Assembly (NCBI GenBank): GCA_036924285.1
Contig: JAYKYS010000009.1
Location: 14,136,001-14,200,000, forward strand
Length of the DNA: 64,000 nt
Origin: Asterella californica
Taxonomy: Eukaryota; Streptophyta; Marchantiopsida; Marchantiales; Aytoniaceae
Reading direction: 5' to 3'
Of this stretch, positions 18,007-62,316 are shown in pieces (within the stretch, counting starts at the first letter, position 1; every line of letters begins with the position of its first letter). The translations under genes and the position numbers were made by a program. The notes under the pieces were generated by a model. The model saw nothing but the letters and a program-made list of their open reading frames with translations. It was not told where the DNA came from and ran no database searches.

Positions 18007-19164
18007 CTACGATCCAATGGCATCGTAAAACCCTGCAGCCTGAGGGTGACCCTGCACAAAGTTTTGGACAAACTTTTTCTCAGAAATCTGCAAGATGTGG
18101 CAAAGGGAATACTCTCTAGTGAGCAAACCCATAGTTTTCAGCCAAGCAATCAGTTGATGTCTAGGCTTGATCCTTTGCTCCAGACTGTATGTCAAGTAAC
18201 CTGGAAACTCGTTGACTATTTTCTTCACACAGTAACTGTTGGCCTGCAAAAAGTCCAGCTTCTGCTGGATATGTGAAGTGCTCAAATTCAGGATACTTGG
18301 ACAAGTAGCCACGATTTTCCCCATGCATTCTTTCTCCACTCCGATACTCTCCAGGTACTTGATCTTCGGAAGCACGTTATCCTCATTGCTAAGACAGAAA
18401 ATCTTCGGACACCTAGTTATTAATTTGCTCAGATACTTTTTGTCCACTCCAATGCTCTCAAGGAGTTTCACCTTTGGCCTCATATTGTCCTCAATGCTAA
18501 GAGCAAAAATGTACGGGGACCGCATGATAACTTTAGCGATACTCTCTCTTTCTAGACCAATACCCTCCAAAAACTTGGTCTTGGACATCATATTCCCCTC
18601 AATACTGTAAGTAAGAACTGTTGGAAACCGCTCAATTATTTTCCCAATGCTCTGCCGTTGAATGCCGAAACTACCAAAAAACGCCACTTTTGGCATCAAA
18701 TTCATCTCTAACCTACCGAGCAAAAGGTTCGGAGAAAACAAGATAACTTTTGGTAGATCACGAACACCAAGGGTCCTCAGAAAGGCTATTTTCGGCTGAA
18801 GTTCTTCCTCCAGACTCAAAGACAAAAGTAGTGGACACTGCTTCAGAACCTGCATTGCCTGCTCCTTAGTGAAGCTACAGCCGACAAAAAACTCCACCTT
18901 TCTCTGCCAGTCATTCTCTTCGGGAGTCTCAAGTGCACAGAGTTGGGTCGATCCAAGGAACCTGACAGATATATATGCGAGGCCATTTTCCAGCTTCGTA
19001 GGACGTGTCCGTAAGAAGCTCACACCTCCTGACGAAAGAGGTGTCACACTTGTAGAATGGGAAAGGGCAGGAAGCACAGTATCTCCTGCAAAGCCGTGCC
19101 TGTGAGACAGAACCACTAGTCTGCCAAGGCAACAATGCACAGCTCTCTTGACTAACGGCGACAT
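18007..19164 (-). CDS. mTERF-family protein, organelle-targeted
   Basis: This intronless gene encodes about 385 residues. The first ATG is at 19,162-19,164; the frame stays open a little further upstream but offers no earlier ATG before a TGA near 19,231. Residues 1 to about 80 are rich in Ser, Arg and Leu and poor in acids, like a mitochondrial or plastid transit peptide. From about residue 88 there are roughly eight tandem mTERF repeats of 32-36 residues with the pattern PKxxFLxxxGxxxxxIxKxIxxxPxxLxxSxEDN (examples near 126, 159, 194, 231 and 267). mTERF proteins are helical-repeat nucleic-acid-binding proteins of mitochondria and chloroplasts that act in organelle transcription, splicing and translation; which role this one has cannot be read here. 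Length and repeat number fit the family. It is the only clearly intact host gene in the window, with no neighbour suggesting co-regulation. Confidence 0.92.
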   Translation of the reverse strand: MSPLVKRAVHCCLGRLVVLSHRHGFAGDTVLPALSHSTSVTPLSSGGVSFLRTRPTKLENGLAYISVRFLGSTQLCALETPEENDWQRKVEFFVGCSFTKEQAMQVLKQCPLLLSLSLEEELQPKIAFLRTLGVRDLPKVILFSPNLLLGRLEMNLMPKVAFFGSFGIQRQSIGKIIERFPTVLTYSIEGNMMSKTKFLEGIGLERESIAKVIMRSPYIFALSIEDNMRPKVKLLESIGVDKKYLSKLITRCPKIFCLSNEDNVLPKIKYLESIGVEKECMGKIVATCPSILNLSTSHIQQKLDFLQANSYCVKKIVNEFPGYLTYSLEQRIKPRHQLIAWLKTMGLLTREYSLCHILQISEKKFVQNFVQGHPQAAGFYDAIGS

Positions 19165-22100
19165 CACAAGAACTTGGCTGGACGAGCTTAATGAACTTCC
19201 GGTGCGCCCACCATAATAAACCTCTTCTCAACCATCCGCGAAATCCGGTCAATCCTCCCCTGGCTAGCCAATGTCATAGCTACACCGTTAGACGCAGACC
19301 GATTCGCGTCCGCTTAAAGGTTGACAACTCTCCTGGATCACCGACACCCACCCATACTGCTGCAAAGTCAATATCCATGATCCAGGTAGTGCGCACCGCT
19401 TCTAGTCGTGCGGCCTAATCCAACTATCCAGTCGTCCTTGCTCCATGTGCTCTGCACTGCTGCAGGAACAACCCGGAATCAGCGTGACTCCTCCGAGTAA
19501 CTCCCTCCTTAGAGAAGCTCAGAGAAGAAAGGATTCCTGATTCAAGGAAAGACTCCCCCTCAGTGAAACAAAAAGCAGGGCTTGCAACCTATGACTCTCA
19601 CCACGCCTCGTCCTCTTAAACGATTCGAACTAGTGCATCAAGAGCAAACTTACAATCCCGCACAGTCGCTCGTGGACCGCGCACTGTAAGGTGGCATAGA
19701 AAAATCTCATCAGTCTGTAAGACTGTGCTACAAAGATACCTACATTTTGAACTATACATCGTAAATCTCACACGAAACTTAGGCACGCACAACAAAGAGA
19801 ACAATGTAAGCAGATAAACTACGACAGAGATTTCCGACTCTACTACTCTGTCACTTCTGATTCCTCGCTCCAGCTTGTAACTTGGAGATCACAGGTTAAA
19901 GTTATAAAGGCAGGACTGCATCGTCTACGCACTACCCAAACTTCTCTACCAGTTCCAATGACGCTGTCATCGGGGAGACCTCGAGTACCTGATTCTGGTT
20001 ATTAGGTCTACCTAATAACACTACATCTCGAGAAGTTCACGTATTCAGCAGCGAACAGGCACCTTCCAAAGTTGCTCTCTCTCACTCAGTGGTCGATATT
20101 CGTGCTCCGGATTCAAATCGGAGGTCAATCGAAAGATTTGCAGGTGTCTCGCGTTGCAGAAAAGGAAGCTGACTGGGCTGGGCAGAACACGAGCCGCCGT
20201 CGATCATAATGGCCTCAGTCCCCCGCCTGACGAGCGGCTCCAGCCGCCAGCGCCTTCCTGACCGAACGGGTTCGGAGAAGTTCCAACTGGGACACGGCAC
20301 TACGATAGGTGAAAACCAGGCCCCATCCCGGCCATCCGGGCCAACCCAACGTTTCGGGACTTAGCGTTGGTTTGGACCGGGTAAACTCGAGTTGACTAAA
20401 CTCCCGCTCTGGTGAGGGCCGAGGCTAATGATTCCCCTGACTCCACGGTCCTCGAGGCTGGATTCTGGACCCACACACGTGAATCATGAATAAACTGATA
20501 CTGTAATGATGTGTAATCTGGTCTCGTTCACGCCGGAATGGAATCGTGAATCCGGCGGGCCTCTCGTGAGTTCCGGAATTTAGTGTTGTGCCCGCCGGTA
20601 ATTTTCATAATTTCCGGATTTGAGCAAAATCCGTCGGAAGATTTCCGGGAGAAAAGATCTACTCAACTTTTCGACTAAAATACGAAATATTTGGTTCCTT
20701 TTCCTTCCACCATAAATGTATCCCGTGAAAACCTTTCCGAGCATTGCTCCGGAGACATGGTTTTGCCGCGGCCAAAGCCTTAAAGAGTAGTTTTTCATCA
20801 TGCAAACTTAAATCTCTTTTTCTTTTTACTGCATCTTCCTTTCATGTATAGATTCAGCGCGAAGCACGGCAGCGCTGTGAATCGAGCAGGTCTCATTTCA
20901 GAACACGGTTCTTTTTCTCTTCGGGTGGTTAGTTGATCCACTAAGAGCGCAACCGCCCACACAATTTCGTGTCTATATTATCGATTTTTGAAGCTAGGTT
21001 GGAGGGTTGGGTTGAAGCATGTATTCTTTTCTGTCTTTCAGTTTCAGTTTTACGAGACCAAAACAGTATGCCGTACACAATCTGCTGTGTAACGAGACGA
21101 GTTCCAAATGAGCATGATTTCGCTAAACGGTCAGTATTTCCAGATAGTCAAGTATGTGTAACATGTCTACGTTGGCAGATGAGTCCATGACGAATCCACA
21201 AATATTCAATGCCGCTTTCATCGATTGGTGTGTAGTAGATGTGTGGCACTTGGGATCTCATAGCTGCAATATCCAGAGTTTTATGGACTTGACGATTATA
21301 TTTGTGGTGTGAGAAAATCAGAGCATTGAATATAATGGCGTTGAGATGAGCCGTTAATGAGATTTTTGTTGTATCTGAAGTGGAAGCTCACATATATGAT
21401 GTCTTTAGATCTCCACATGAACCTCATGTCAGCTTGGATAGCCAACGAGTGTCATTTCAACACATTCTTCTTAATGGTCAGCATGCTGGTGGCGGAAGAG
21501 TGTATGCTATTCTGTCAAATTTATAAAAAATTCTTGGATCATCGTCGGATGATGTCCAACCATTCAAAGAAGAACCAACTTCACATCCTGAATCATCGAG
21601 GCCGACTACAGCTGCTGATGTTTTCGTGTTGTCACTATGAGAGTCTCTCTTGGGGAGGGCACACCTCTTGACTGTGACTGATTTTGAAATCGATCAAAAG
21701 AAAAATAGATTGCTGTCAATGATCAAAACTCAAATTTGATCTCTTGCATCCATCAAATCAAACCAGACACTCAAATATGTACACATAGGTTTTTCACGAC
21801 TCAATAAACTTTATTCTAGTATCAATTTTATCACCAAAATCTTTAGTGATCGAAAACATCTCCTCTCACTCCTGTACCCCTCTCCTCTGCTCTCAATTCC
21901 GTTGTCTTTTCACCAGATTCACCTCCAAACAGTCTAGTAGATAAAATTCAAGCTCCCTAACTCTTATTCCTCTCTCTACGGCAACTTTCCCACTGAAATC
22001 CTTCAGAAAATCTATCCTCTCAGTCTCTACTTCTCCTGCGCGTCTCCACGGCCTCCTTCGGACAAAAAGTAGAATACCCCCTTCGCACGACGTCGACTAT

Positions 22101-46198: not shown

Positions 46199-48230
46199 TG
46201 TCGTGTCGTGGACCGGCTCCTACATGAAATTCAAACTCCGATGCTTGTCGCTCCAAAAACATTCATGAGTAGACAAGCTAGGCCCCAGCTTATGAGCTTT
46301 TGGCATCATTTCGGATCTTCATTTTCATCACATAGATGGGTAGAGCTCCTTGTCAGCTTTCCATAGGCACTTCGTCTACTTCGTTTCGACGCCTAGTGGA
46401 AAAGTTACAGGACTCGAAAGATGGAGAAAACAAGCTAGGCCCCAGCTTACGGGTTTTTGGCACCACTTCGGATCTTCGTTTTTATCGCACCAGTGGATAG
46501 AGCTCCTTGTCAGCTTTCCATAGGCACTTCATCTACTTCGTTTGGACGCCTAGTGGAAAAGTTACAAGACTCGAAAGATGGAGAAAACAAGCTAGGCCCC
46601 AGCTTACGGGCTTTTGGCGCAACTTCCGATCTTCACTTTCATCACATGGATGGGTAGAGCTCGTTGTCAGCATTCCATGGGCATCTTGTTTATTTCGTTT
46701 GAACATCCAGAGAAGAAGTTATGCGATTCGAAAGAAGGTAAAATCAAGCTAGGCCCTGGTTACTTGCTGACTGGGTATTTAGGGCTTCAGGCGTTATATC
46801 AAAGACGCCAGGGGCCTGCTTCTTATTATTCAGGAGATTGAGGAGAGAACTGTACGTACAGAGACTGTTGGAAGGGGGTGCTTAAGGGGCTAGCTTGCGT
46901 CTGCGATCTGTCAACGGACGGTTCGGGAGATTTAAGAGTCCAATGCAAACGCGCAAGGCGTCGTTGGGTTCAGATCTATGCAGGCTACGCACTGGTTCAA
47001 ACGGTTTGGGAAGAGACGGATCGGGGAGTGTGTAGTGAGGGAAATTGAGACGCAGGAAGCAGATTTGAGGTTTTCAGTTACCTGTGAAGGAGAGTTGGAC
47101 CGTTCGGGCCGTTCCGGAGTCCAAACTTGCTGTCCTTGGATCCAATGGGATCAGAACACCGAGTTCTACAGGAAATTGAAGACGATGCCAGTTTTCATCG
47201 GGCGGTTTGGAAGTTTTGAGTGAAATTGGCTCGCAGGGAAGCGCTTACATCAGATTTTCATTCACCTGTGACCTGAGGTTGGGCTGTTCTTCGCGATCGG
47301 TGAGCCAAGCTCTTCGTTCTTGGTGCCTACGCGATCAGGGAGTCTTCATCTACTCATAGGAGAAGACCGTGTGTGAATTGGATTGTTGGTTTGAGTGTGG
47401 TGAGCAAGTTTGAGCCGCAGGGAGCTGATTTACGTCAGTTTTTTGCAACCTGCGGCCAAATTTCTCGAGTGGTTTTGCAAGGGGAACTCCAAACGACTTG
47501 TTTGGAGTCTCGTTGGGTTCAGGGTAGCTAGATCTATCTGCCAGCGAAGACGGATATCAGTTTGGACGATCCGTTTGTGCGGTGTGAGCGGTTTTAAGAA
47601 GCAGGGAGGAGTTTTTGGAGGTTCGGTCACCTGCGACCGAAAATCGACGATATCTCGGCTGTTGGGAGTCGGATCTGAAGGTTTCTTGGGTTAACAGAGT
47701 CAGCGGAGGAGACCCTATCGACATCTGAAGTCCGTTCAGCGAAAAGAGGAAGTCCACAGATAGGTCTTTTTCGGTTTCTTCGCTACGGGTTTTGCTCTTT
47801 TGAGTTCGTTAGAATTCTGGTTGGTTGTATACAGCTTGTGGTAGCTAGCTTTAGCTAAGAGCTTATACATGGATGTGGTTTGGACTTGGGTTTGGATTAT
47901 GTGATGCTGCTGTGGCTCTGTTTGTTAGCAAAGAGAAGTTTCTCTTGCTTTGAGCTACGCTTCGATGGTTTTGGGTCAGGGTTGTGATTCAAGGGGTGTT
48001 TTTAAGGGCTTTTGAAGCAGGTTACAGACCGCTCTGGTCTGGTTCTCAGTTCTGTGCTCTTAGGAGAAAGAACTGGCAGTGTACATACATTTGGGAGTGG
48101 TATATATCGCAGCATTCGCTTTCGTGGTTGTTTTTTCTCTGTCTTGTCTCTGTTTCAGCACACAATTTCTCCACAGCCAGGAACCTCGCGTTTTCCTGGA
48201 CATCCTTCACGCAAAACGTCCGACGCGACA
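46199..48230 (+). repeat. 5' LTR of the gag-only element
   Basis: It runs from TGTCGTGTCGTGG to CGACGCGACA (2,032 bp), a clean TG...CA. It carries three 157-bp units and is followed by 'taggtggtgaactcgacg', the shared primer-binding zone. Confidence 0.92.
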
Positions 48231-48413
48231 TAGGTGGTGAACTCGACGTGAAGCTCCGAGATGGAGATTTCTGTGTTTGAATTGGACAGAAGAGATCAGC
48301 AATCATGAACGATGATGAGGATGGATACTGTTGTTCGAGAGGATGTTGTGGACCTGGGATGATGGATTTGTAGACAGTTGAGATCATGAGAGGATGGGAG
48401 GATGAGACGAGCC

Positions 48414-50000
48414 ATGACTATGGATGGGATGGACGGATCAGAGGGTATACCAGGGATGCAGTTGGATGCAACAACTGTAGGATTGTTTCAAGCCTTCACT
48501 TTGTTTATGCGACAAGAGCAAGAGAACCAACAAAAGGAGGCTTTGGGGACGAAGGCACTTGGAAGGGTGATCGACAAGTTCGATCTATTTGATGGGAGAG
48601 ACATCTCAAAGTACTTGAGATGTTACAAGACAGAGATGGATTTGGATCAGGTACCGGAGAAGGAGATGATCGAGACGTTCGAACTCGCTGCGGTGCCTGA
48701 GATAAGAGAGCATGTGAAGGGTCTAGCAAAGCGTTTTGGGAAGGACTGGGATACATTTTCACATGCGCTGATGGAGGAGTATTTCTTGGGAAACTCAGAT
48801 CGAGTAACCAAGAAATCATTTTTGGGATGGGTCAACATATCCAACAAGGGTTTACAGCCTACAGAGCTGTTAAAGGAGTTTGAGAGACAATTCTCTCAAC
48901 TACCTCAGGTGGACAAGCTAGCCTTGGAGACTTACAAGACAGAGTTGTTTCTTCAAGCTGCTGATGAGACATGGCAAGAACGGTTAGAGCTACTTCTGGA
49001 GGATGCGGAGGAAGAAGATGGGTTAACAAGGAATTGGGAGGTTGTGCATGAAGCGGTTGAACTTCTTGTCTGGAGACATACAAGGGAAAGGGTTACAAGG
49101 TTGACACCTACAGCGTTGACTACCACACCAGTTTGGGTAGTATCTGAGGTTCAACCTCCAATTGCGGTTGTAGAGGAGAAGGATCCAACCATCGAGGACC
49201 TACAGCAAAAGATGCAAGATCTCCAAGCTAAGGTTACTAGGTTGGAGGATAAGGGATCGTCGACCAAGATGGAGCTTGTACCCAAACCAGCTTGGGTCCA
49301 TCACTGCCTATGGTGTGATGGTACAGACCATCAGCGAGATGATTGCATCGACTTTGCAGAGTCTTTGCAACGAGAGGTTATTTCTTGGGAGGATGGAAAG
49401 GTTGCATTCACAAGTACGGGTACTCTCCTTCAAGCCAACGTTGGTAAAGGAGGGATGAAGAAGATTGTGGATGATTATCTTGCGGCACATGCAGTTGTAG
49501 CTGACGAAGCTACAAGTTATGGTGTTAGGGTGGAGGAGATTGAGCATGATCTCCATAGAGATGGTTTGGATGAGCACGAGGATCTAAACGAGCTCAGGTT
49601 GGATACTGCATCCACGATGCAGTGCGAGAAGAAGGACCAACAAGATACTTCTTCAGGGAGGTTAGCTCAGGAGGATAGGATTCAACAAGAAACTATTCTT
49701 CCTGAACAGGCAATGGAGAGCAATCCTTCACAACCGGAGGAGATGATTGAGGTGCAGACAGCGGACGTGGGTGATCTGATTGCTGACAAACAACTACCAG
49801 ATGCAGATATGACGACGATGGATGTGAAGGGAGGTTGGGAGGAGCGTATTCGAGATGCACAAGTTGGGTTCCTATCACGAGAGGTCTTGGATGCAGCTAC
49901 AAGGAGAGTCCATGATGTCATCATTGGCATCATCAAGGACAGATATACTGAGGACGAAGGAGAATGGATGGATGCTTTCAAGGCTACGGGTATAGGATGA
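48414..50000 (+). CDS. Gag polyprotein, intact
   Basis: An uninterrupted protein of about 528 residues. The frame opens with an ATG at 48,402, but homology to the other gag ('QLDATTVGLFQAFT' versus 'QLDPTTASMFQAFT') and the local ATG cluster favour 48,414. Order: Gly/Met-rich start, capsid-like helical region with 'FDGRDISKYLRCY' and 'WDTFSHALMEEYF', a Glu-rich helix, then a canonical CCHC knuckle (C-x2-C-x4-H-x4-C, 'CLWCDGTDHQRDDC') near 49,306-49,350. A long acidic tail ends near the point where protease begins in the autonomous relative ('HDVIIGIIKDR'). The absence of stops contrasts with every other coding remnant of the family here and suggests recent activity or selection on gag for packaging. 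Confidence 0.85.
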   Translation: MTMDGMDGSEGIPGMQLDATTVGLFQAFTLFMRQEQENQQKEALGTKALGRVIDKFDLFDGRDISKYLRCYKTEMDLDQVPEKEMIETFELAAVPEIREHVKGLAKRFGKDWDTFSHALMEEYFLGNSDRVTKKSFLGWVNISNKGLQPTELLKEFERQFSQLPQVDKLALETYKTELFLQAADETWQERLELLLEDAEEEDGLTRNWEVVHEAVELLVWRHTRERVTRLTPTALTTTPVWVVSEVQPPIAVVEEKDPTIEDLQQKMQDLQAKVTRLEDKGSSTKMELVPKPAWVHHCLWCDGTDHQRDDCIDFAESLQREVISWEDGKVAFTSTGTLLQANVGKGGMKKIVDDYLAAHAVVADEATSYGVRVEEIEHDLHRDGLDEHEDLNELRLDTASTMQCEKKDQQDTSSGRLAQEDRIQQETILPEQAMESNPSQPEEMIEVQTADVGDLIADKQLPDADMTTMDVKGGWEERIRDAQVGFLSREVLDAATRRVHDVIIGIIKDRYTEDEGEWMDAFKATGIG

Positions 50001-50073: not shown

Positions 50074-50155
50074 TTGTAAATATTTTCAGGAAGGTTGAGA
50101 GGATGATGCTTGGGAGGTTGTGAGGATTTTCAGAAGAAGATATCAGGGAGGATGA
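50074..50155 (+). repeat. 82-bp flanking duplication, left copy
   Basis: The 82 bp starting 'ttgtaaatattttcagg' and ending 'gggaggatga' sit directly left of the nested methyltransferase element. They recur, apparently identical, at 59,661-59,742 directly right of it. Gypsy integrases normally duplicate 4-5 bp. Confidence 0.95.
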
Positions 50156-50666
50156 TGTCGTGCGCATACACATCGCTACACAACATACATCGCTGTCAGA
50201 GATACACCACACATACACATAACACATGAACGATGTCATACACATACACAAGTGTACCACAATAATCTGAATACAGAGATTACCATCTCCAACACCACAA
50301 CAAGGATTACTCACAAACGGTCAAGCCAAACCCACTCTAAACGCGAAGAGAATCCGTGTTACACTCAACTAGACTATCCACCATAGCCTGGAGCTTGAAG
50401 ACTCAACTCAAAGAACTAAGGCCTCCAAGCCCTACCTGCGAAGTTTACCCCTAGTGGGCTCTCTCTCCAACTCGCCCTAACGGCACTAACGGCCTTACCG
50501 GGATGCGTCACTTCGCACTCGGTCAACCTAGCCGAGGTGCCCAAACTGACGTGATAGCTGTCGTGCGCATACACATCGCTACACAACATACATCGCTGTC
50601 AGAGATACACCACACATACACATAACACATGAACGATGTCATACACATACACAAGTGTACCACAAT
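50156..50666 (-). repeat. Left terminal repeat block (full LTR + 108 bp)
   Basis: A 108-bp sequence (TGTCGTGCGC...CCACAAT) occurs twice, identical: 50,156-50,263 and 50,559-50,666. Between them is a 294-bp block (50,263-50,556) that also forms the right end of the element, followed by 'gc'. Seen from the polypurine tract at 50,667, a complete LTR of about 402 bp runs leftward (50,664 to 50,263), followed by the first 106-108 bp of a second LTR. Confidence 0.9.
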
Positions 50667-50680
50667 CGCCCCCCTAACTG
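50667..50680 (-). promoter_or_regulatory. Polypurine tract of methyltransferase element
   Basis: On the minus strand 'TTAGGGGGGCGA' lies immediately before TTGTGGTAC at 50,664-50,666. This is where a plus-strand primer should sit and it marks the internal/3' LTR boundary. Confidence 0.6.
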
Positions 50681-50837
50681 ACGGTTAGGTCCCTCTAACT
50701 CTAGATAGCTCCATATCCCAACTACGTGATACACACCTTCATGGGTGCAAGGATCAGGAGGCCGGGTGCTACATTGCCCCATCGTTAGTCGCCTGTCTGC
50801 AATCCATACCACGCAAAGATCTTATCGACTATCTCCG

Positions 50838-52472
50838 CTATATACATCGAGGACAAACCCACCGTCTAGTAGGAACTACACTGAGAGGTGGAGTCAAACA
50901 TGACATGTGCCAACCTCTCGAACAACCATCACACACCAACATACGGGCTGCTCCACCAGCAGATCCACACAACATACACCTCAAGCCCGCGCGTACAACT
51001 GCTAAGCTTGGGTCAACGGTACCATCAATGTTGGGAAGATGACATGGCGCGCAATTACGCACATGGTCCTTCCATACAACACCATCACGGCCCTCTAACA
51101 TGAGTACTCCAGAAGGTAACACCTCACGCACTCGTAAAATAGTGCACCCTGCGGTCACGTCCAACGTCGTCGGTGCAGTCTGCTGTAGATAGATATAATC
51201 GCCAAGATGAAACCTGCGAATCGACGGCCGATAACCTCCTCCTCGGATAGTCGCATACCGCAACGTGTCTCTATGCTGGGCAATCGCTAGGTTCTCAAAA
51301 GCCATAGGCATAACTCTCTGAAATGTCTCTGCTCGTTGAGAACATGCTCTCACCCACATATCCAGGTCATCAAGGTCCAGCACCTCAGCAGAATCACGAC
51401 GAATGGCCGAAGGTAGATCTGGATCTCGGCCATACAATAAGAAATACGGTGAGAAGGAAGCCAAAGACGCTTGTCGGCTAAAATGGTAGCCCATAGCCAA
51501 CCATGGTAATTGCACATCCCAGTCTCCCAAGTGGCCCTTCTGCAAGCCATACTTGCGCAATCCTCTCTTCACCGTCTGAACTACCCTCTCCGCCAAACCA
51601 TCCGCCTCAGGATGATCTCGAGATGTAGTCCGATGATCAATCAGCGCCTGATCACACAAGGCCTCAAACTCACCAAGGAACTCTGTACCTTGGTCTGTCA
51701 GCACTTCAGCTGGTGCTCCGAAACGACTCAACACTCGATCTAAGAACGCGTACGCCGTCCTTTCACTCGCCTTGTCTGGTAATACCACCAACTCAATCCA
51801 CTTGGAGAAGTGCTCCACCATCACCAACACATACCGATGGTGACGTACAGTCAACGGTAAGGGTCCCGCAAAATCCAAACTCCAACGGTAACCCAACCCC
51901 ATAATCGGTAAGGGGTGTAACTGTGGAGTAGGAGCATTAAACGATGCTCGTACTCGATCACAAACCACACATCGTGCGACAAACTGTTGCACATCGATGT
52001 GCATACCACGCCACCAATACTGTCCTTGGAGTAAGCTATGCGTACGCTTCACTCCAAAATGTCCCAACTCCTCATGGGCATGTCGTACTAACTGTGCCCT
52101 CTGGGATGGATGTGGCACTATCCGTACCCTCCCATCACCCCACACTCGAAGTACATGTCGTCCTTCTCGTCGAAATCTCTTCGCTCGTTGGAGGACACGA
52201 TCTCGCTCCTTGGCACTTACTGTGTCTACTACCACACCAGTACGTAGATACTCCATCACGGTCACATCATCATGGATATCTCGCTGGTCTGAAACACCAT
52301 CTCCACCCTCAGGATCTGGAGACTCATCATCTACTCTCTGTCCAGAGAAAGATACGACTTGGCCCTCCATACTAGAGTTCATGGCCAACACACAAAGAAA
52401 GGCAGATGCATGCCACCCTGGCACTATCTCCTCATCAACCTCGTCATGCCAGCGAGCCCCAGTCTGATCCTG
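50838..52472 (-). pseudogene. pol: integrase with C-terminal PHD finger
   Basis: An open run of 528 residues from the in-frame start at 52,424, in the same frame as the upstream RT and separated from it by one TAG (52,473). Residue positions count from 52,424. The zinc-binding HHCC comprises H117, H122, C152 and C155. The core has D184 ('WSLDFAGPL'), D244 ('LTDQGTEF') and E279 ('GLAERVVQ'), the complete DDE triad. A C-terminal beta module includes 'FHLGDYIYLQQ'. The last 48 residues form a PHD finger with C483, C486, C498, C501, H506, C509, C524 and C527 (C4HC3, 'CDGCSRGWH'). PHD fingers commonly bind histone H3 tails, so a role in choosing insertion sites is an inference, by analogy with chromodomain-bearing gypsy integrases. 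The frame ends in TAG at 50,838. Confidence 0.9.
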
Positions 52473-54236
52473 CTAACTCGTGCACGGGTTGCGACTCAAC
52501 CCGTCGGCATCTAGGTTTGCAACTCCAGGTCTATGTACTACCTGGAAGTCATACTCCTGTAAGATCAGAGCCCATCGTGCAAGCTTCCCTGTAAGCTTGT
52601 CGGACTCCATCAACCACTTGAGCGGCTGGTGATCAGTGATGAGAGTAAAGGGGTTCCCAAACAGATAACATCGAAAGTGTGCAACAGCCCACACTGCCGC
52701 CAAACACTCTCCCTCATACGAACTATACCTCGCCTCCGCTGAATTGTTGGAGCGACTGGCATACGCCATCACGAACTCCTTTTTCTCATCATCATGCCGA
52801 GTCAGCACTGCTCCAAGTCCCAACATACTCCAATCGGTGTGCAGTTGGAAAGGACGCCCCCTAACGGGTCTCCTCAAGATGGGAGCAGATGTCAACTTAT
52901 CCTTGAGCTCTATGAAAGCTCGCTCCTGCTCATCTCCCCACTGCCACTCCTGGTCCACCTTCATCAGCTTGGTCAACGGCTTCGCAATTGCACTAAACCC
53001 TTTCACGTATCGACGATAGAAGTTCGCCAAACCAACAAATGCTCGAACTCGACTCACATCTGTGGGGCGTGGGATACGTGCAATAGCCTCAACCTTCGTC
53101 TGTTGAACACCCAATCCACCTGGATAGATGGTGTGGCCCAGATACCCTACCAACTCATGGAAGAACTTACACTTCCCAGGGTGTAACTTCAACCCATGAG
53201 CTCTCAACCGCTCAAACACATCCCGTAAGTGTCTCTCGTGCTCCTCCACTGTAGCACTATAGACTAAGATGTCGTCAATATAACATCTGACAAAATCCAA
53301 TCCTGCTAGGATTCTGTCCATCACCCTTTGGAACTCAGCAGGGGCGTTCTTCAACCCAAATGGTAAGAACCGCCACTGATACAAACAATCCTTGCCGTGA
53401 GAGTCAATTCCCCAAAATGCTGTCTTGGACTTATCTTCTTCTCTCACTGGCAACTGATGATACCCTGCTCGAAGATCCAAAGTACTGAAGACCTTCACAT
53501 GCCCCACTGCATCAAAGATCTCTTCAGGTGTCGGCATGGCATACTTATCGGACTTCGTCTGCCGATTGATAGGACGGTAGTCTCCACACATCCGCCTATC
53601 CGTGTAGTTGTCATACATATCCTTCTTGGCTGGCATAACTGTGGCAGATGCATACTCTCCATGCGACATCTCCACCAACCCAACCTCCAATAAGTCTTGA
53701 GTCCGACTCTGGATCAAGGCTCTCTCCATGTCACTGTACCTGTAAGGACGTCGAAAGATTGGCGTGTCATTAGCCAAGTCGATCCGTATACCAGGTCCCT
53801 TCAAGGTACCCAAATCCTTCATACTGAAGGCAAAACAATTCCTGTAGCTCTTCAGGAATCTTTGGACTCTTCGTCTCTCCTCTCCTATAAGCTTGGGTCC
53901 GATCTCCGGCTCCCAAGTATCCTCTGTCACCATGCTAGAGGTAGAAGACGAAGTCGTTGACTGCTATCTTGCAGCCTCTGGAGCAGTTTCCTTCTGCTCA
54001 CCACCAACAACCTCCACCGCTACTGTGTGTAAAACTTCTGCAGTTCTAGCTGCAAACTCCACACTCTCTCCAATGACATCCCATGATGTCCAAGGATGAC
54101 GAACTCCACGTGCTTCGCCCCCAGCCTTTGCCTCCACCGACCCGGTAGGCAAAGAGCTCAAGAGTGCTCGAGCAGTAACACCCGTCGATCGCATCCGACG
54201 CTGCTCAGCCAATCCAAGACTAACAATCCATGTCAA
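52473..54236 (-). pseudogene. pol: reverse transcriptase and RNase H
   Basis: In frame with the units on both sides. Positions count from the ATG at 53,933 (486 residues). RT: D153 ('FSTLDLRAGYHQ'), 'FLPFGLKNAPAEFQ' and the YIDD box at 218-221. RNase H: D367 ('LHTDWS'), E409 ('EGECLAAVWA') and D434 ('ITDHQPLKW'), then the connection to integrase. Upstream, 54,236-53,964 is a linker from the methyltransferase domain, ended by a TAG at 53,964. All catalytic residues of both activities are present and there is no frameshift, so the only visible lesions are the TAG codons at 53,964 and 52,473 and the upstream stops. Confidence 0.92.
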
Positions 54237-57083
54237 TCAATTCAAGTCCATTGCTTGACCCAATACTTGACGACGTGAAGCCTCCGACACCGAAGCTACT
54301 GCCGTCGTACCCGTAGTGAAACCCATCGCTCGCTCTCTCTCATCGGCATTGGGCTCCACCAACTACCGTAACTGAGCATCCCACACAAGCCCAGGTCCTC
54401 CATCTCTGTAAGCATGTGACGCTGGAAAGCTTACCAAAGTGGGTAATGCTACCATGGGCCGTCCCACTAGGTTCATCACTGCCATGGGTGACCTATCGAC
54501 GACTCTCACTACTTGAGATCGTCGTCCTACATCCAAGATGCTATCAACCGTGAGGTGCGCTGGTCGTCTCACTCCATCGTGTGCGCGCTTAAGCACCTCT
54601 CTCGGTAACAAGTTCGTCCACCACAACCGTGGACGATGTGCACGAGATCCCACTCTCGCTGCATCCAACAACACTGCTGGTCCAACCCAAGACCGCACTT
54701 GGTGCACACTCGCCATCATCTGTGTACGAGCATCACCCAACAAAGGAACGTTCTCCAAGATGTACGCTGGAGAATCCACCTGATGCATCTGGAGATGTCG
54801 TAGGATCCGTAACATCTCCCAGAACATCCTAGATCGCGGGTCATGTAAACCTTGACCTCTCCCTGCACGCGTGTGACCTTGACATGGCCATCCGGCTATC
54901 ACCAAGTGAATGGTGCCCACAAACGTAAGATCCTGCGCCCCCAGCAGCAAAATATCCGACGGTAATGCTTGCTGGTATCCTCTAACAGCTGATATGGGCA
55001 ACAACTCAGGATATCTCTGCACCAAACGTGCCACATGTCGCAATGAGATGCGTCTCGCAATCTCATCTCTCTCCACATACAAGTATCGCTGTACTTGTAT
55101 ACCTGCCTGCAATACCACAGCCAAACCTGTGCTGATCCCTCCAAACAGCTCCAGCACACATACACCTTCCTCTGGATACTGCCACACAATGGGAGTCGTA
55201 TCCAACGGTGATAAGGTCACAGGGCCAGTAGCAGGAACAACCCTTTGTTCCTCTACTGGTGGTACAAAAGCTTCACTCCAAGCCTGCTGCACCAACTGAT
55301 CAGCATACTGCTGCAACTCTCCACTCGAACTCCAGAGTGGAACATCCAAGGCAGATGGTACTAACATAGACATGCTAGGCATGTCCTCCACCTCGTCATA
55401 GATCGGAGTATCCTCCGCATGGGCATTACCCTCCAACAACTCGTCCGGCCAAGTGATGATCGAACTGAACCCTGCAACGGATGCCATCGTTCCTGGTGTA
55501 GGCTCCGTCGTCCCAACTCTAGCACTGAACCGCACTGGTAAGCGGCTCACTCGTCCCTCACCGGACTGCCAACCTGGTCTGTAAGATGCTGTCTCTGCCC
55601 AATAGTCAATCACGAACCTCATAGGGTACAACACAGCACCTCCCACCAATACATCATAAGACTCTGCGGCTGTAACGATGGCCTTGGCCCTCACCATAGA
55701 GCCATCCGTGGGGTGATCTGGTCGAACTCTCACCGTCAACATCTCACGTGTCATGTGCAGAGCCGTACCTCCTGATCCCCCTAGAGATGTCTGCAACTGG
55801 AATGGACATCTCTCTATCTCGGACTTCTTCAGACCCAAACCAATACACGCCGCCTTTCCCAACATCAACGGTTGGGCTCTAGAGTCTAACAAGACCTTCT
55901 GGGGTCGATACACTTTCCCTGAAGGTGCCACCAAACAGAAGATACCACTTATGTTGTCCAACAACACCACACCTGGTGCCAAACTAGCACGGTCAATCGC
56001 CGGCCTAGCTGGTAACTCATCTAACCTAGCAGCCGCCGCTTGCCAAGTACCACTGGTAGCTGTCCTGATCCTCGACTCCATGGACACGTCTACCGCCTCT
56101 CGCTGAACTACTTCAGCACTAGAGGTAACTACATCCTCGCTCTCACTGAGCGTGGCCGTCAACTGGAACACTGGAGCCAAGTTGACTCCCAATGCCCTCA
56201 TATCCGTGGCTGAGAATAGTGGGGCTCGCAAAACTGCTGTAGCCGCCCCCAACATCGGGTTCGACGTCGCATCCACAGACGTCGAAGATGGACTCACATC
56301 ACACCCACTCCTGGATGTCGATGTCTCCAACTCTACTGCACCATCGGTAGATCGTTTAGGAACCATAGATGTGGTCTTCAACGCCTCCGATAACGTGAAC
56401 GACTGGGGAAGCCTGGCTTGTCTACCAGCCTCTCCGCGTTGTGGATCCAACTCCACTGACGCACCTCGTGGCTCAGAGGCACGTACTGCACCTCTAGTCA
56501 CTACCGCAGATGCCTCAATCTGCGCCACACCAGCCATGAAGTCGAAGTCACCTCCTTCTCGTCCATAAGACGTGGAAGCCTCTGTTCCACCTGATCTCCG
56601 CTGAGCCATAGCCATACTAGCTATCCTCTGCTCCAACTGCTCAATCCGAGCAGCCATACCTGCTTCTGACGTTGTAGCAGGCGGTGGACCGACCGGTCCT
56701 CTCCCAGGTGCTAGACCTCTACCTCCAGCTCGACCACCACGGCCTCCCTGAGCTCCTCCGCCTCGTCCACGATCAGCCTTCCCTTGCCGCAACTCGGGAT
56801 GGAGATCAAAACAACGGTCACTACTGTGACCAGGTCGTCCGCAATGCTCACATTGCCTAGGTACTGCTTGAGACGTCCCTGATGTCTCTGACGTCTCATA
56901 ATCTCTCCTCTGTGGACAGTCCCTCTGCTGATGAGGACCATCACACGTCCAGCAAGGACCCGCTTGCTGCTGACTAGAGAAGGGCGGCATGGGCTTCTGC
57001 CCACCAGATCCTCCAACACCTCCCTGAGATCGTGATTGCTCCGCACGATCCTTACCACCACCACCACCACGCTGTTGCGTAGC
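54237..57083 (-). pseudogene. gag-pol: CCHC, protease and DNA methyltransferase
   Basis: An open run of 875 residues (56,990-54,363), continuing in frame after a TAG (54,363) to a TGA (54,237). Two zinc knuckles: C13-C16-H20-C25 and C47-C50-H55-C60. A basic Gly/Arg stretch follows at 71-100. The protease domain has 'LLDSRAQPLMLG' at 367-378, so the usual D-S-G reads D-S-R, and 'YDVLVGGAVLYP' at 445-456. From about 605 comes a C5-cytosine methyltransferase: motif I 'LELFGGISTGL' (613-623), motif IV 'PCQ' with the nucleophile C703 (codon 54,882-54,884), motif VI 'ENV' (746-748) and motif VIII 'AHRPRLWWTNL' (784-794). Past the TAG come motif IX 'ERERAMGF' and motif X 'VLGQAMDLN'. Motif VIII is DNMT3-like; PCQ is more DNMT1/bacterial-like. 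The domain is complete but interrupted by stops. Confidence 0.93.
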
Positions 57084-58073
57084 CTATGATCCTCGAGAAG
57101 AGGTGGTCGCTCCATGTGGTGTCTCCTTGCTGAACCCAGCAACCACCACCCTCTCCTCCACCATGTTGAGCTCAATCCGCTCAGCCAGACTAAAGACAAC
57201 CGCCAACGTCGGAGCGGTATCTCTAAGAAGAGTAGCATCTCTAACTCTCCTACGCAGCTCCCGGTCTAGTATCCCATACCAGAACTGGACTGCCTGTGCT
57301 TCCGTCACCCCTTGGGTAACGCTGATCAACCGCCTCATGCGAGTAAACGCCTCGCGTAGGCTCTCTCCAGTCTTCCGCTGGAACTCCTGCAGACTCCTCA
57401 ACTTGTCGGTCCGCACACCCTGATAGTTCTTCCTCAAACATTGGAAGAACTGAACCACAGGGTTAAACCCTGGTGGTATCCCGCTCACACTACCACCTGC
57501 TCCACTACTTGTGGATGCACCGGTAGTAGGTACTCCGCCACCTGTGGCTGCACCACTGCTACTGGCACCCGAACTCGCAGGTGCTACGTCTCCCGAAACT
57601 GCACCAGTAGTGATAGAAACGTAGTTGGGAGACTAATGTTGTCTCCACAACTCGATCTCAACACTGTAATCTCGCCTGAACTCATGATAATCGTCCATCG
57701 GCGGTCCCTCCAAGTGTTGGAACAAACCCTTCCACGCCATGAAGGGTGTAAACAGCTGTGGGTTCCGCATCTGCTGCAGATCGCACCAACTGTCAAACTC
57801 CTGGATGAAGTCATCCAGCTCAATGGTACCAACTGTACCCGAGTAACGTCGAGGCCCCTTCGTGGCCCCATAGATCTCGTCCATGTCCCACAACAACGGT
57901 GTGGTGACACTAGACTCACCACCAGAAAACGCGCTGTCTGCGTCTGACTCGTCCTCTGGAACAACCGACGGCAATGGTGTAGGTAGTCGGTACCTCACCC
58001 CACTCCGTGTATATCCACTGTCCGAGAAGTCCCCACCAGAACCTCCCGAGAACTCCGTGATGAGAGAATCCCG
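57084..58073 (-). pseudogene. gag of the methyltransferase element
   Basis: In frame with pol. After a TAG at 58,074-58,076 the frame is open through a Ser/Gly-rich N-terminus and an acidic block ('PEDESDADSAF'), then 'LDDFIQEFDSWCDLQQM' and 'FMAWKGLFQHLEG', to a TAG at 57,633. It resumes through a Ser/Gly/Ala/Thr linker into a gypsy capsid domain ('LRSLQEFQRKTGESLREAFTR' pattern; 'FWYGILDRELRRRV'), ending at a TAG at 57,084 just before the zinc knuckles. There is no in-frame ATG at the very start; the first clear one lies near 57,890, so the true start may be mutated. Confidence 0.75.
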
Positions 58074-59355
58074 CTAACACACTCTCCAACTGGAATGTCG
58101 TAATCCCCGTCACCACCGTAACCACCACTTGCCTAACCCCGCTCCTACTGAGCTCACCTATCCCCTACTAGGACGGTCAAGGTAAGGGCAACCTGTACCT
58201 GCCATCACCACAGGCAACCTCTCACGGTCTGTTGGTCGTCACTCCAACCGCACCGTGAGAGAGACAAAGATAGTCTGACTGGTCCGTAACTCCAGCCTCA
58301 CTATCGACAGCACACTGGAGTGAACTCACTCCGGAAATCAAGCGCCAACACAAGCAAACGCGGCGCACAAACAGGAAGCAGAGTATGGAGGGGTTCCAAC
58401 CACAAGAAGTCCAAACGATAACCCTCCACACTCAAACATTCACATAAAGAGAAACCCAGCCCCACCCGGACTGACGACTCCTTGTCGGTGACCACATGCA
58501 CAATATATGGTCACCAACAGTCGTAACTGACACTAACTAGATGTCCACACCTCTAGTAGCTCCCAAAAACATCCACGTGGTAGCTCTACTAGCTCACCCA
58601 AGACAACTGCCACCAATTGCCTCCATACGCGCCTCTACGGTGTAGGCAAACACTACCACAACTATAGCTTCCCCCTAATACTGTGGGGTCGCCCTACCAC
58701 TCCTTTAGGGACGTGCGAGAAGGTCTCCTACTACCTTATACAAGTCCATAAGTACTTGCACGCATCCCTGTAGGACACCAAGAGCTATTGGTCTAGTGGT
58801 AAAGCCAAAGCTAAGACTACAGAGTCAGGAGTCCAGGTCCAGGAATAGTGTTGGGATGGGTGACCAGCTGGTTTTACCCTTCCAACACACCTGAAGCTTG
58901 GATACCTCTCTCACGCACGCCAGCAAGCTGGCTTGCAGCGGGCGCGGGCTCGGGCTCAGGCTCAGCTCCGCTCCGCCTCCGCACTCTCGCACTCCGCTCT
59001 CCGCTCTCACGCCTCCGCACTCACGCACCTCTGTTCCTCGAAGCCTCCAAAGAGTCCACTCCGGCCCGACATTGACAAGTATTTCAGCTGCTACGCCCAA
59101 ACGCGCAATCCGGCTCCAACAACACACTTCAAGAACATTCCGCAAAATTTCTGCAGCGCTTCCGCATGACAGAAATCTCCACTCGACCCCAACAACAGCA
59201 AATCGATCTGCGACCAGCAATGTAGCACGGCGCCCACACACCTCGATCACAGCTCCAAACAATCAACCACGAACGGCAACGCCCGAAGATACCAGCGGAC
59301 GATTTCCGATTTCAGATCTGCGAGCTCTTACTGAACTCCGCCTCGACCTGCACTG
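58074..59355 (-). other. 5' untranslated region of methyltransferase element
   Basis: About 1.3 kb between the right terminal repeat and gag with no supported coding sequence. A tRNA/5S-like patch is listed separately. The plus-strand open frames at 58,848-59,356 are compositional (Ser/Arg/Thr-rich) and lack a domain. Confidence 0.5.
58781..58885 (+). other. tRNA-like / 5S-like patch (possible SINE head)
   Basis: 'ttggtctagtggtaaagc' matches a tRNA A-box region, with 'gagtccaggtcc' a weak B-box match at a plausible distance. Immediately after, 'gttgggatgggtgacc' is like the 3' internal region of 5S rRNA. No full tRNA or 5S gene folds out of it. It may be a captured SINE head or an internal pol III-like signal of the element. 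Confidence 0.35.
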
Positions 59356-59367
59356 AGTTCTTTGAGT
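59356..59367 (-). promoter_or_regulatory. Self-complementary primer-binding-site candidate
   Basis: On the minus strand ACTCAAAGAACT directly abuts the end of the right 294-bp terminal repeat. It is perfectly complementary (12/12) to AGTTCTTTGAGT inside the same repeat (59,510-59,521). No tRNA-type TGG-starting PBS is seen here. Yeast Tf1 primes its DNA synthesis from the first 11 nt of its own RNA paired to a PBS next to the LTR; the layout here fits that mode. Confidence 0.5.
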
Positions 59368-59660
59368 AATCTGAATACAAAGATTACCATCTCCAACACC
59401 ACAACAAGGATTACTCACAAACGGTCAAGCCAAACCCACTCTAAACGCGAAGAGAATCCGAGTTACACTCAACTAGACTATCCACCATAGCCTGGAGCTT
59501 GAAGGCTCAACTCAAAGAACTAAGGCCTCCAAGCCCTACCTGCGAAGTTTACCCCTAGTGGGCTCTCTCTCCAACTCGCCCTAACGGCACTAACGGCCTT
59601 ACCGGGATGCGCCACTTCGCACTCGGTCAACCTAGCCGAGGTGCCCAAACTGACGTGACA
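59367..59660 (-). repeat. Right terminal repeat (294-bp partial LTR)
   Basis: The same length as 50,263-50,556, with five differences by my count (about 1.7%) and no indels. It lacks the 108-bp part found twice at the left end. The outer end is GTGACA, where the left counterpart reads GTGATA. Confidence 0.92.
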
Positions 59661-60283
59661 TTGTAAATATTTTCAGGAAGGTTGAGAGGATGATGCTTGG
59701 GAGGTTGTGAGGATTTTCAGAAGAAGATATCAGGGAGGATGATGGTTGAGGAAGATACTATTCTACAGCGAGACAATGATGGTTGCAGTTGATGATTTTG
59801 GTTGCAGCAGTGTGGTTCCTTTTTTTTTCAGAAAAACAAAAAAGAAGAGTTGGATACGTACAACGACATGTACATGCTTGAGGTTGAGGGTTACTGTCAG
59901 GATACGGGTGATGATTGACAGGATGGGGGATGTCTACTACGACACTTGGGTCACAACCTCGACAATGAGGTTCTACATGACGGATGGAAGACATTTCTAT
60001 GATATGATGGGTTATTCTTTCTATGTCTTCGCATATTGAAGATGTGTAGATTTAGAGGGGGTGATTGGATGAGAGGTTCGAGGTGAAGATCGATGAGCAT
60101 GGATCTAGGGAGGATCATGGCAGGATTGCAACTTCAAGATGACGATCGAGTTGCATACTTGAGGATGAGGTTGACCGAGATGGGAGGAGGAGGAGAAGAT
60201 GGGAATGAGTGTGAGTTCTGGTCCACTCCTTGGTTGGTATCTCTGGTGCATACCGGAGGATGCACAGGTTTGGAGGGAGTGGA
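59661..60283 (+). other. 82-bp duplication and tail of the gag-only element
   Basis: Starts with the second copy of the 82-bp flank (59,661-59,742). The non-coding remainder of the gag-only element follows, sharing 'gatgagcatggatct' and the pre-LTR tail with 45,460-45,629, and ends in the purine run 'tggagggagtgga' before the 3' LTR. Confidence 0.8.
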
Positions 60284-62316
60284 TGTCGTGTCGTGGACCG
60301 GCTCCTACATGAAATTCAAACTCCGATGCTTGTCGCTCCAAAAACATTCATGAGTAGACAAGCTAGGTCCCAGCTTATGGGCTTTTGGCATCATTTCGGA
60401 TCTTCATTTTCATCACATAGATGGGTAGAGCTCCTTGTCAGCTTTCCATAGGCACTTCGTCTACTTCGTTTGGACGCCTAGTGGAAAAGTTACAGGACTC
60501 GAAAGATGGAGAAAACAAGCTAGGCCCCAGCTTACGGGTTTTTGGCACCACTTCGGATCTTCGTTTTTATCGCACCAGTGGATAGAGCTCCTTGTCAGCT
60601 TTCCATAGGCACTTCATCTACTTCGTTTGGACGCCTAGTGGAAAAGTTACAAGACTCGAAAGATGGAGAAAACAAGCTAGGCTCCAGCTTACGGGCTTTT
60701 GGCGCAACTTCCGATCTTCACTTTCATCACATGGATGGGTAGAGCTCGTTGTCAGCATTCCATGGGCATATTGTTTATTTCTTTTGGACATCCAGAGAAG
60801 AAGTTATGCGATTCGAAAGAAGGTAAAATCAAGCTAGGCCCCTGGTTACTTGCTGACTGAGTATTTAGGGCTTCATGCGTTATATCAAAGACGCAAGGGG
60901 CCTGCTTCTTATTATTCAGGAGATTGAGGAGAGAACTGTACGTACAGAGACTGTTGGAAGGGGGTGCTTAAGGGGCTAGCTTGCGTCTGCGATCTGTCAA
61001 CGGACGATTCGGGAGATTTAAGAGTCCAATGCAAACGCGCAAGGCGTCGTTGGGTTCAGATCTATGCAGGCTACGCACTGGTTCAAACGGTTTGGGAAGA
61101 GACGGATCGGGGAGTGTGTAGTGAGGGAAATTGAGACGCAGGAAGCAGATTTGAGGTTTTCAGTTACCTGTGAAGGAGAGTTGGACCGTTCGGGCCGTTC
61201 CGGAGTCCAAACTTGCTGTCCTTGGATCCAACGGGATCAGAACACCGAGTTCTACAGGAAATTGAAGACGATGCCAGTTTTCATCGGGCGGTTTGGAAGT
61301 TTTGAGTGAAATTGGCTCGCAGGGAAGCGCTTACATCAGATTTTCATTCACCTGTGACCTGAGGTTGGGCTGTTCTTCGCGATCGGTGAGCCAAGCTCTT
61401 CGTTCTTGGTGCCTACGCGATCAGGGAGTCTTCATCTACTCATAGGAGAAGACCGTGTGTGAATTGGATTGTTGGTTTGAGTGTGGTGAGCAAGTTTGAG
61501 CCGCAGGGAGCTGATTTACGTCAGTTTTTTGCAACCTGCGGCCAAATTTCTCGAGTGGTTTTGCAAGGGGAACTCCAAACGACTTGTTTGGAGTCTCGTT
61601 GGGTTCAGGGTAGCTAGATCTATCTGCCAGCGAAGACGGATATCAGTTTGGACGATCCATTTGTGCGGTGTGAGCGGTTTTAAGCCGCAGGGAGGAGTTT
61701 TTGAAGGTTCGGTCACCTGCGACCGAAAATCGGCGATATCTCGGCTGTTGGGAGTCGGATCTGAAGGTTTCTTGGGTTAACGGAGTCAGCGGAGGAGACC
61801 CTATCGACATCTGAAGTCCGTTCAGCGAAAAGAGGAAGTCCACAGATAGGTCTTTTTCGGTTTCTTCGCTACGGGTTTTGCTCTTTTGAGTTCGTTAGAA
61901 TTCTGGTTGGTTGTATACAGCTTGTGGTAGCTAGCTTTAGCTAAGAGCTTATACATGGATGTGGTTTGGACTTGGGTTTGGATCTTGTGATACTGCTGTG
62001 GCTCTGTTTGTTAGCAAAGAGAAGTTTCTCTTGCTTTGAGCTACGCTTCGATGGTTTTGGGTCAGGGTTGTGATTCAAGGGGTGTTTTTAAGGGCTTTTG
62101 AAGCAGGTTACAGACCGCTCTGGTCTGTTTCTCAGTTCTGTGCTCTTAGGAGAAAGAACTGGCAGTGTACATACATTTGGGAGTGGTATATATCGCAGCA
62201 TTCGCTTTCGTGGTTGTTTTTTCTCTGTCTTGTCTCTGTTTCAGCACACAATTTCTCCACAGCCAGGAACCTCGTGTTTTCCTGGACATCCTTCACGCAA
62301 AACGTCCGACGCGACA
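60284..62316 (+). repeat. 3' LTR of the gag-only element
   Basis: 2,033 bp, TGTCGTG to GCGACA, with three 157-bp units. Differences from the 5' copy are few and mostly single bases, for example 'gtttcgacgcc' versus 'gtttggacgcc'. This indicates a recent insertion. Confidence 0.92.

Follow-up and report, generated by a model that had tools for sequence, protein, structure and literature searches.

Plants silence transposons by DNA methylation, and a retrotransposon that carries and conserves a DNMT3-type methyltransferase poses the question of who benefits from the enzyme. This question is raised by a gypsy-like element in a window of 64,000 nucleotides from Asterella californica (GenBank assembly GCA_036924285.1, contig JAYKYS010000009.1, positions 14,136,001 to 14,200,000, forward strand), in which an earlier reading made from the letters alone (the sequence-only reading) had noticed a C5-cytosine methyltransferase (MTase) domain. 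For such gypsy elements, the 2018 work (PMC5890265) had one alga and an assay without a clear result. In our analysis, the element is rather probably a decayed copy from a Ty3/gypsy lineage of green plants that combines a DNMT3-type writer with a PHD reader, and whose enzyme would methylate the element's own complementary DNA (cDNA). Among its named relatives is Marchantia polymorpha, a liverwort amenable to experiment for which genetics and methylome data exist, and the question could thereby be approached in a land plant.

The six motifs listed in the sequence-only reading were all found in order on the minus strand: I, LELFGGIS (55131–55154); IV, PCQ (54879–54887, with C703 of the 875-residue run); VI, ENV (54747–54755); VIII, AHRPRLWW (54618–54641); IX, ERERAMGF (54318–54341); and X, LGQAMDL (54243–54263). 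This ordered set, including Pro-Cys in motif IV, identifies a C5-cytosine methyltransferase. The Pfam check proposed earlier gave a significant match on the open part of the domain (PF00145, 1.1e-8, 35.3 bits with the cut-off at 22), and this match and the domain order bear out a genuine C5-MTase inside a gypsy polyprotein between protease (PR) and reverse transcriptase (RT). DNMT3A was matched at 2e-25 by a 13-row profile, and DNMT3A/3B were closest among the solved C5-MTases by profile and by fold (predicted model: local distance difference test, pLDDT, 90.4; template-modelling score, pTM, 0.90). Against this stands a phmmer search with the single domain, which gave no match in PDB at E up to 1, DNMT3 being reached by profile only. 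Motif IV reads PCQ here versus PCN in DNMT3A, and we class the enzyme as DNMT3-like, not as a canonical DNMT3. Cys-Gln occupied motif IV in 115 of the 118 rows with a readable motif (158 rows in all); the earlier suggestion of a separate lineage is supported, with Cys-Gln as its motif IV, DNMT3A itself being a long branch of unsure exact placement in the domain tree. An enzyme that methylates RNA, namely the genomic RNA in particles, would suit the Gag-linked position described below, and RNA methylation was raised for LINE-borne enzymes by the authors of the 2018 paper (PMC5890265); the profile, however, scores DNMT3A/3B much better than the RNA enzyme DNMT2 (2e-25 versus 2e-9), and we hold this alternative to be very unlikely.

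Relatives were collected with a domain search (48 proteins) and a profile search (462 proteins, the best 120 of which were used). The named MTase-bearing hosts among the matches listed were Marchantia polymorpha, Calypogeia fissa, Sphagnum troendelagicum, Sphagnum fallax and Closterium NIES-53 and NIES-54, and nearly all other listed matches were metagenomic or without a species name. These proteins place the element family in green algae and, among land plants, in liverworts and peat mosses. One Riccia sorocarpa protein (P0215) holds RT, RNase H (RH) and integrase (INT) of the element, and the MTase is absent from that protein. A further relative, L012 (CADCWO010000201.1, 9285 bp), is filed as a cyanobacterial metagenome-assembled genome (MAG) and is a eukaryotic gypsy-MTase element with open frames. 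A chance chimera, in which a piece of an MTase gene landed once in a dying element, would agree with the several stops of the window copy; it is refuted because the relatives carry the domain, at the same element position in Marchantia, Calypogeia, Sphagnum and Closterium proteins, and the L012 frame is open, so that its probability is practically negligible. A one-off domain absent from all other copies, the outcome against which the sequence-only reading had set its claim, does not hold in related elements.

Identity between the window and Marchantia P0001 was 77% in the MTase, 75% in the gag core (over 122/135), 61% in the protease, 58% in the linker before the MTase and 54% in the zinc-knuckle region; RT was 84% identical to that of P0008. 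Because the MTase is more conserved than its flanks at the protein level, the comparison argues for purifying selection on the domain. A domain that no longer methylates and persists in Gag for nucleic-acid binding or in a structural role, like the non-catalytic partner DNMT3L, would be in line with the Klebsormidium nitens domain, which gave no methylation in yeast, a result its authors called inconclusive (PMC5890265). Such a role is distinctly unlikely in view of the 115/118 Cys-Gln rows, the motif-VI-like EN[VIGALT] pattern in 133 of 158 rows (matched anywhere in the row, not tied to the motif VI position) and the retention of the motifs between rows only 31–48% identical.

The window copy itself is dead, and the case rests on its relatives. 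The single gag-pol frame of the sequence-only reading is interrupted, with six in-frame stops before the last (57633, 57084, 54363, 54237, 53964 and 52473; five TAG, one TGA). A TAG (54363–54365, minus strand) interrupts the MTase between motifs VIII and IX, where P0001 and P0004 are open, and the TGA (54237–54239) lies directly behind motif X, so that a whole enzyme from this copy would need readthrough. Sense codons occur in P0001 at the positions of 57633, 54363 and 54237 and in P0215 at 52473–52475, and these four stops are lesions because the relatives read sense there; the stop at 53964–53966 appears natural. The protease motif is DSRA in the window versus DSGA in P0001 and P0008. The excess of TAG (five of the six internal stops) was considered as a sign of deamination and dropped, as codon counts favour TAG anyway. 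The five internal stops besides the natural-looking one (four TAG, one TGA) contrast with A repeats that differ at no more than 4/292 sites.

The natural-looking stop divides the element. In L012, the Gag-PR-MTase frame closes with a stop at 3489 and goes on, without a shift, as RT-RH-INT-PHD (3492 to 6632); the stop is TAG CAA TCA in L012 and TAG CAG TCA at its window homologue (53966). Tobacco mosaic virus is the known example of type I readthrough, with the context UAG CAR YYA. In the window and in L012 alike, the coding strand has a single TAG-CAR-YYA, at the end of open reading frame (ORF) 1, and by sequence both stops have the type I context. Four of five Marchantia ORF1 models (P0001, P0002, P0003 and P0010) end 75–86 residues past the MTase, near the expected stop. 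The conserved stop and the model ends therefore make the MTase most likely the C-terminal end of an abundant Gag-PR-MTase product, with RT and integrase supplied via readthrough, and the enzyme is probably not part of an RT-bearing Pol, as the sequence-only reading had it.

The integrase retains the acidic residues D184 and D244 (frame of 50838–52424); the acidic partner marked by script was E273, and by position the catalytic Glu would usually be E279, which lies 34 residues past D244. The closest solved relatives of its C-terminal PHD finger include the MLL3, KMT2D, DPF2, KDM5B and CHD4 fingers, several of which read the histone H3 tail, and histone reading by the finger may target the integrase.

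The MTase takes two places among the relatives. Of 163 proteins, 54 have more than one element domain: 43 fit PR-MTase-RT and 11 fit RH-MTase-INT, some Marchantia gene models omitting stretches that are presumably predicted introns. A quick domain tree (88 rows) put all seven labelled RH-MTase rows in a 19-row set without PR-MTase rows (SH-aLRT 95). A careful tree used 50 of 160 rows, with two references and three long rows excluded and unlabelled rows below 310 residues and near-copies removed by hand; its 29 rows of known MTase position (22 and 7) need one change, at a split with support 100/98. The place of the window differs between the runs: the careful tree sets it among 12 rows that include Marchantia, Calypogeia and Sphagnum (100/99) but not P0005 and P0006, and in the quick tree it joins P0005 and P0006 (88) inside a 33-row set holding the same bryophyte rows. 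An integrase-PHD search (best 120 of 455 matches used) added 119 further proteins, 100 with a PHD finger and 9 with an MTase directly before the integrase. In the integrase tree (30 of 108 rows, those without upstream sequence unlabelled), the window, Calypogeia and Klebsormidium formed one clade (100/99), whose labelled members have RH directly before the integrase; outside it stood Volvox, Haematococcus, the rows with MTase before the integrase and one RH-INT row (P0219). The label "MTase before integrase" clustered imperfectly (2 changes; P0219 adjoins P0240), and no MTase was seen in the chlorophyte proteins P0231, P0242 and P0255. We read these trees as pointing to a single gypsy lineage with a PHD-bearing integrase that spans the green plants and holds the MTase in either of two places, reached by one capture that moved or by two separate captures.

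These placements bear on an MTase that acts in the nucleus on host chromatin or DNA, for example around insertion sites, and not on particle cDNA. The DNMT3-type fold, the histone-reader-like PHD finger on the same element and the MTase adjoining the integrase in the RH-MTase-INT architecture count for it, as does the combination of catalytic and PHD-like modules in animal DNMT3. In the window and in L012, however, the ORF1 stop separates the MTase, on its Gag side, from the integrase-PHD, and we consider nuclear action unlikely.

The coding strand reads gag, zinc knuckles, PR, MTase, RT-RH and integrase with C-terminal PHD finger (Table 1). The PR-RT-RH-INT order with an rve integrase is that of Ty3/gypsy elements, including the plant groups of the REXdb survey (PMC6317226), whose main text covers chromodomain clades, OTA, Phygy and Selgy and contains neither PHD nor Marchantia. 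In place of two ordinary long terminal repeats (LTRs), A1 stands at one end and B1-A2-B2 at the other; the resulting order, A1-coding-B1-A2-B2, is the split direct repeat (A-coding-B-A-B) of DIRS elements. The Pfam scan of six ORF pieces gave no match to the tyrosine recombinase of DIRS elements (PF00589), an rve integrase being present instead, and none to a chromodomain after the integrase, as in chromoviruses, where the PHD finger stands instead.

An element of this kind is already known, namely KnitGypsy-Dnmt3 of K. nitens (de Mendoza 2018), for which PMC5890265 describes gypsy domains, repeats "the same as that of a DIRS retrotransposon" and purifying selection. The window element, with a DNMT3-related domain in a gypsy polyprotein and DIRS-like repeat order, matches that description and is a counterpart of the Klebsormidium case to which the sequence-only reading had pointed. 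The MTase of KnitGypsy-Dnmt3 was compared by description only, no K. nitens MTase being among the matches listed, and the three K. nitens integrases that share the window's clade (100/99) are known by species and not as KnitGypsy-Dnmt3. The window element differs from the published description in its named land-plant relatives, its integrase PHD finger (the term PHD does not occur in the main text of PMC5890265) and the readthrough-type stop behind its MTase. C5-MTases are likewise carried by the Symbiodinium retrotransposons SymbioDIRS-Dnmt3 and SymbioLINE-Dnmt, and SymbioDIRS-Dnmt3 shares the DNMT3-like enzyme and the A-coding-B-A-B repeats; the Symbiodinium elements, however, are described with tyrosine recombinase or LINE machinery, whereas the window element has a DDE-type (rve) integrase (PMC5890265). 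In the closest experiment found, two SymbioDIRS domains gave CG methylation in yeast, and methylation of cDNA upon retrotranscription was suggested for DIRS elements by the same authors (PMC5890265). A 2019 paper states that there are no carriers among land plants, and no report of gypsy-MTase elements in land plants was found in literature that included PMC6338049, PMC12344493, PMC8566409, PMC6453930, PMC6317226, PMC4600332 and PMC5890265, subscription journals being mostly outside it. Relative to the accessible text of the 2018 paper, the land-plant carriers, the integrase PHD finger, the second architecture with MTase between RH and integrase, the conserved UAG-CAR-YYA stop, and the self-primer, polypurine tract and palindrome that may explain permuted LTRs are additions.

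The repeat order may follow from the replication signals. By eye, no tRNA primer-binding site was recognised after A1; a self-complement was found there instead, as in Tf1/sushi-type and other self-primed LTR elements, whose primer-binding site complements their own 5' RNA (PMC4600332, PMC6317226). Tf1/sushi-type elements are placed among chromoviruses, whereas neither a chromodomain nor ordinary LTR order was found in the window element. The 11-nt length of the self-complement was equalled in 9/5000 shuffles; in a free search for self-primer pairs, the window pair (12 nt) was reached in 6/400 shuffles and the L012 pair (13 nt) in 2/400. L012 has a G-run, TAGGGGGGGCA, near 6939, at the place corresponding to the window's TTAGGGGGGCG (by eye, without control). 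The B1/A2 joint CACGACAGCTATCACG keeps 15 of its 16 bases in L012, at 101 versus 103 nt from the LTR start, a conservation matched by 1/1000 single-base shuffles; the core of the L012 joint is a perfect palindrome, GACAGCTGTC, and the window element's ends, TGTC and GACA, are its halves. Self-primer, polypurine tract and palindrome agree with one another and would explain the DIRS-like repeats as permuted LTRs.

Built on the domain order, the fold and motifs, the conservation, the A-coding-B-A-B repeats, the UAG-CAR-YYA stop and the matching signals in L012, all read from sequence, the proposed mechanism runs as follows. The MTase would be made as the C-terminal part of Gag-PR-MTase and enter particles at Gag-like amounts, RT and integrase arising from rare readthrough of the stop. 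Self-primed reverse transcription would, with the polypurine tract, yield LTRs of the form B-joint-A, and the cDNA would be cytosine-methylated inside the particle, before or at nuclear entry. The A2-B2 contact would represent the joined ends of the reverse-transcription product, and a two-LTR circle cut at the palindrome inside the LTR would insert as the permuted A-coding-B-A-B form. The PHD finger would steer the integrase to chromatin via the histone H3 tail, and the new copy would arrive already methylated, resembling silenced host DNA. In our judgement, the most likely reading is that the enzyme travels with Gag and that its substrate is the element's own cDNA. The readthrough-type stop and the palindrome give testable predictions on enzyme dosage and on the origin of DIRS-like repeats in a gypsy element.

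Several observations weigh against this reading. The window copy is dead, the Klebsormidium domain did not methylate in the yeast assay that its authors call inconclusive, and 15 of the 61 rows of at least 300 residues lack one or more of five simple motif patterns. The Marchantia ORF1 model P0012 ends 24 residues past the MTase, off the expected stop, and in the RH-MTase-INT architecture the MTase would lie off the Gag side. The permuted repeats rest on one copy and a K. nitens figure legend, and L012 shows no direct A-B joint. Integrase target duplications are expected to be 4–6 bp; the 82-bp flanking duplication is too long for a DDE integrase and is unexplained by the replication model.

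A wider version, which we regard as doubtful, is that an ancient green-plant lineage packages a de novo MTase with Gag and methylates its cDNA before integration, that a histone-reading integrase acting at a palindromic circle junction places the methylated copy in chosen chromatin, and that the enzyme holds two positions across streptophytes and probably chlorophytes. If true, the element would be a self-writing, self-targeting parasite that exploits the silencing code of its host.

Table 1. Features of the gypsy-MTase element and its flanks (window coordinates)
Feature	Position	Strand	Basis or remark
Whole element, 9505 bp	50156–59660	−	Repeat ends and flanks; coding-strand ends readable as TGTC...GACA
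Repeat A1 (5' terminal repeat)	59367–59660	−	98.6% identical over 292 bp to 50263–50554
Self-primer AGTTCTTTGAG inside A1	59511–59521	−	Predicted 5' end of RNA
Candidate self-primed primer-binding site CTCAAAGAACT	59356–59366	−	Flush with A1 end; perfect 11-nt complement inside A1
Gag region	57084–57998	−	Stops at 57633–57635 and 57084–57086; weak PF03732 match (0.0033), below the PF03732 cut-off
Two CCHC zinc knuckles	56811–56954	−	CWTCDGPHQQRDC and CEHCGRPGHSSDRC
Protease region	55431–56000	−	59–61% homology to Marchantia; active-site motif at 55857–55895
C5-cytosine MTase domain, DNMT3-type, motifs I–X	54243–55202	−	Motifs, Pfam, profile, predicted fold
ORF1 stop TAG CAG TCA, readthrough-type context UAG-CAR-YYA	53958–53966	−	Homologous L012 stop has the same motif
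RT and RNase H	52476–53933	−	PF00078 3.5e-32; PF17917 8.4e-35
Integrase: zinc-binding H2C2, rve core, C-terminal PHD	50838–52424	−	PF17921 1.1e-17; PF00665 1.9e-14; PF00628 1.4e-10
PHD finger	50844–50978	−	All eight C4HC3 zinc ligands
Polypurine-tract-like TTAGGGGGGCG	50667–50677	−	Directly before B1; read by eye, without control
Repeat B1	50559–50666	−	100% identical over 108 bp to 50156–50263
Near-palindromic B1/A2 joint CACGACAGCTATCACG	50550–50565	−	Halves match the element's two ends
Repeat A2	50263–50554	−	Partner of A1; 4/292 sites differ
Repeat B2, 3' end of element	50156–50263	−	Partner of B1
Flanking perfect 82-bp direct repeat, copies 1 and 2	50074–50155, 59661–59742		Part of an 85-bp perfect match

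Two pieces of the element family, P0057 and P0240, are filed under bacterial MAGs (Obscuribacterales, Spirochaetia), labels that are probably contamination. The ends of L012 overlap by 127 bases, which suggests a circle in the assembly graph, and L012 is probably such a circle collapsed. A viral origin was rejected, as 11 IMG/VR loci were only 25–44% identical and had no RT, integrase or PHD match. A bacterial origin was likewise rejected: among 65 GTDB loci the best was L012 (49%), itself such an element, and the remaining 64 were at most 45% identical (21–34% where the match covers at least 140 residues).

No second copy of the gypsy-MTase element was found within the window, other elements giving weak RT/INT matches only, and a search of the remaining window for an empty site yielded no alignment across the point of insertion. 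A degenerate 44-bp tandem lies on one side of the flanking direct repeats. The insertion sits in the internal region of an outer LTR element, which is older than the inserted element and whose terminal repeats (46199–48230 and 60284–62316) are 98.8% alike. In its remaining internal region one long ORF was seen (532 aa, 48402–50000, no Pfam match), and the outer element may be non-autonomous. The clearest host gene noticed in the window was a single-ORF mTERF gene on the minus strand (18010–19167, Pfam 5.3e-54).
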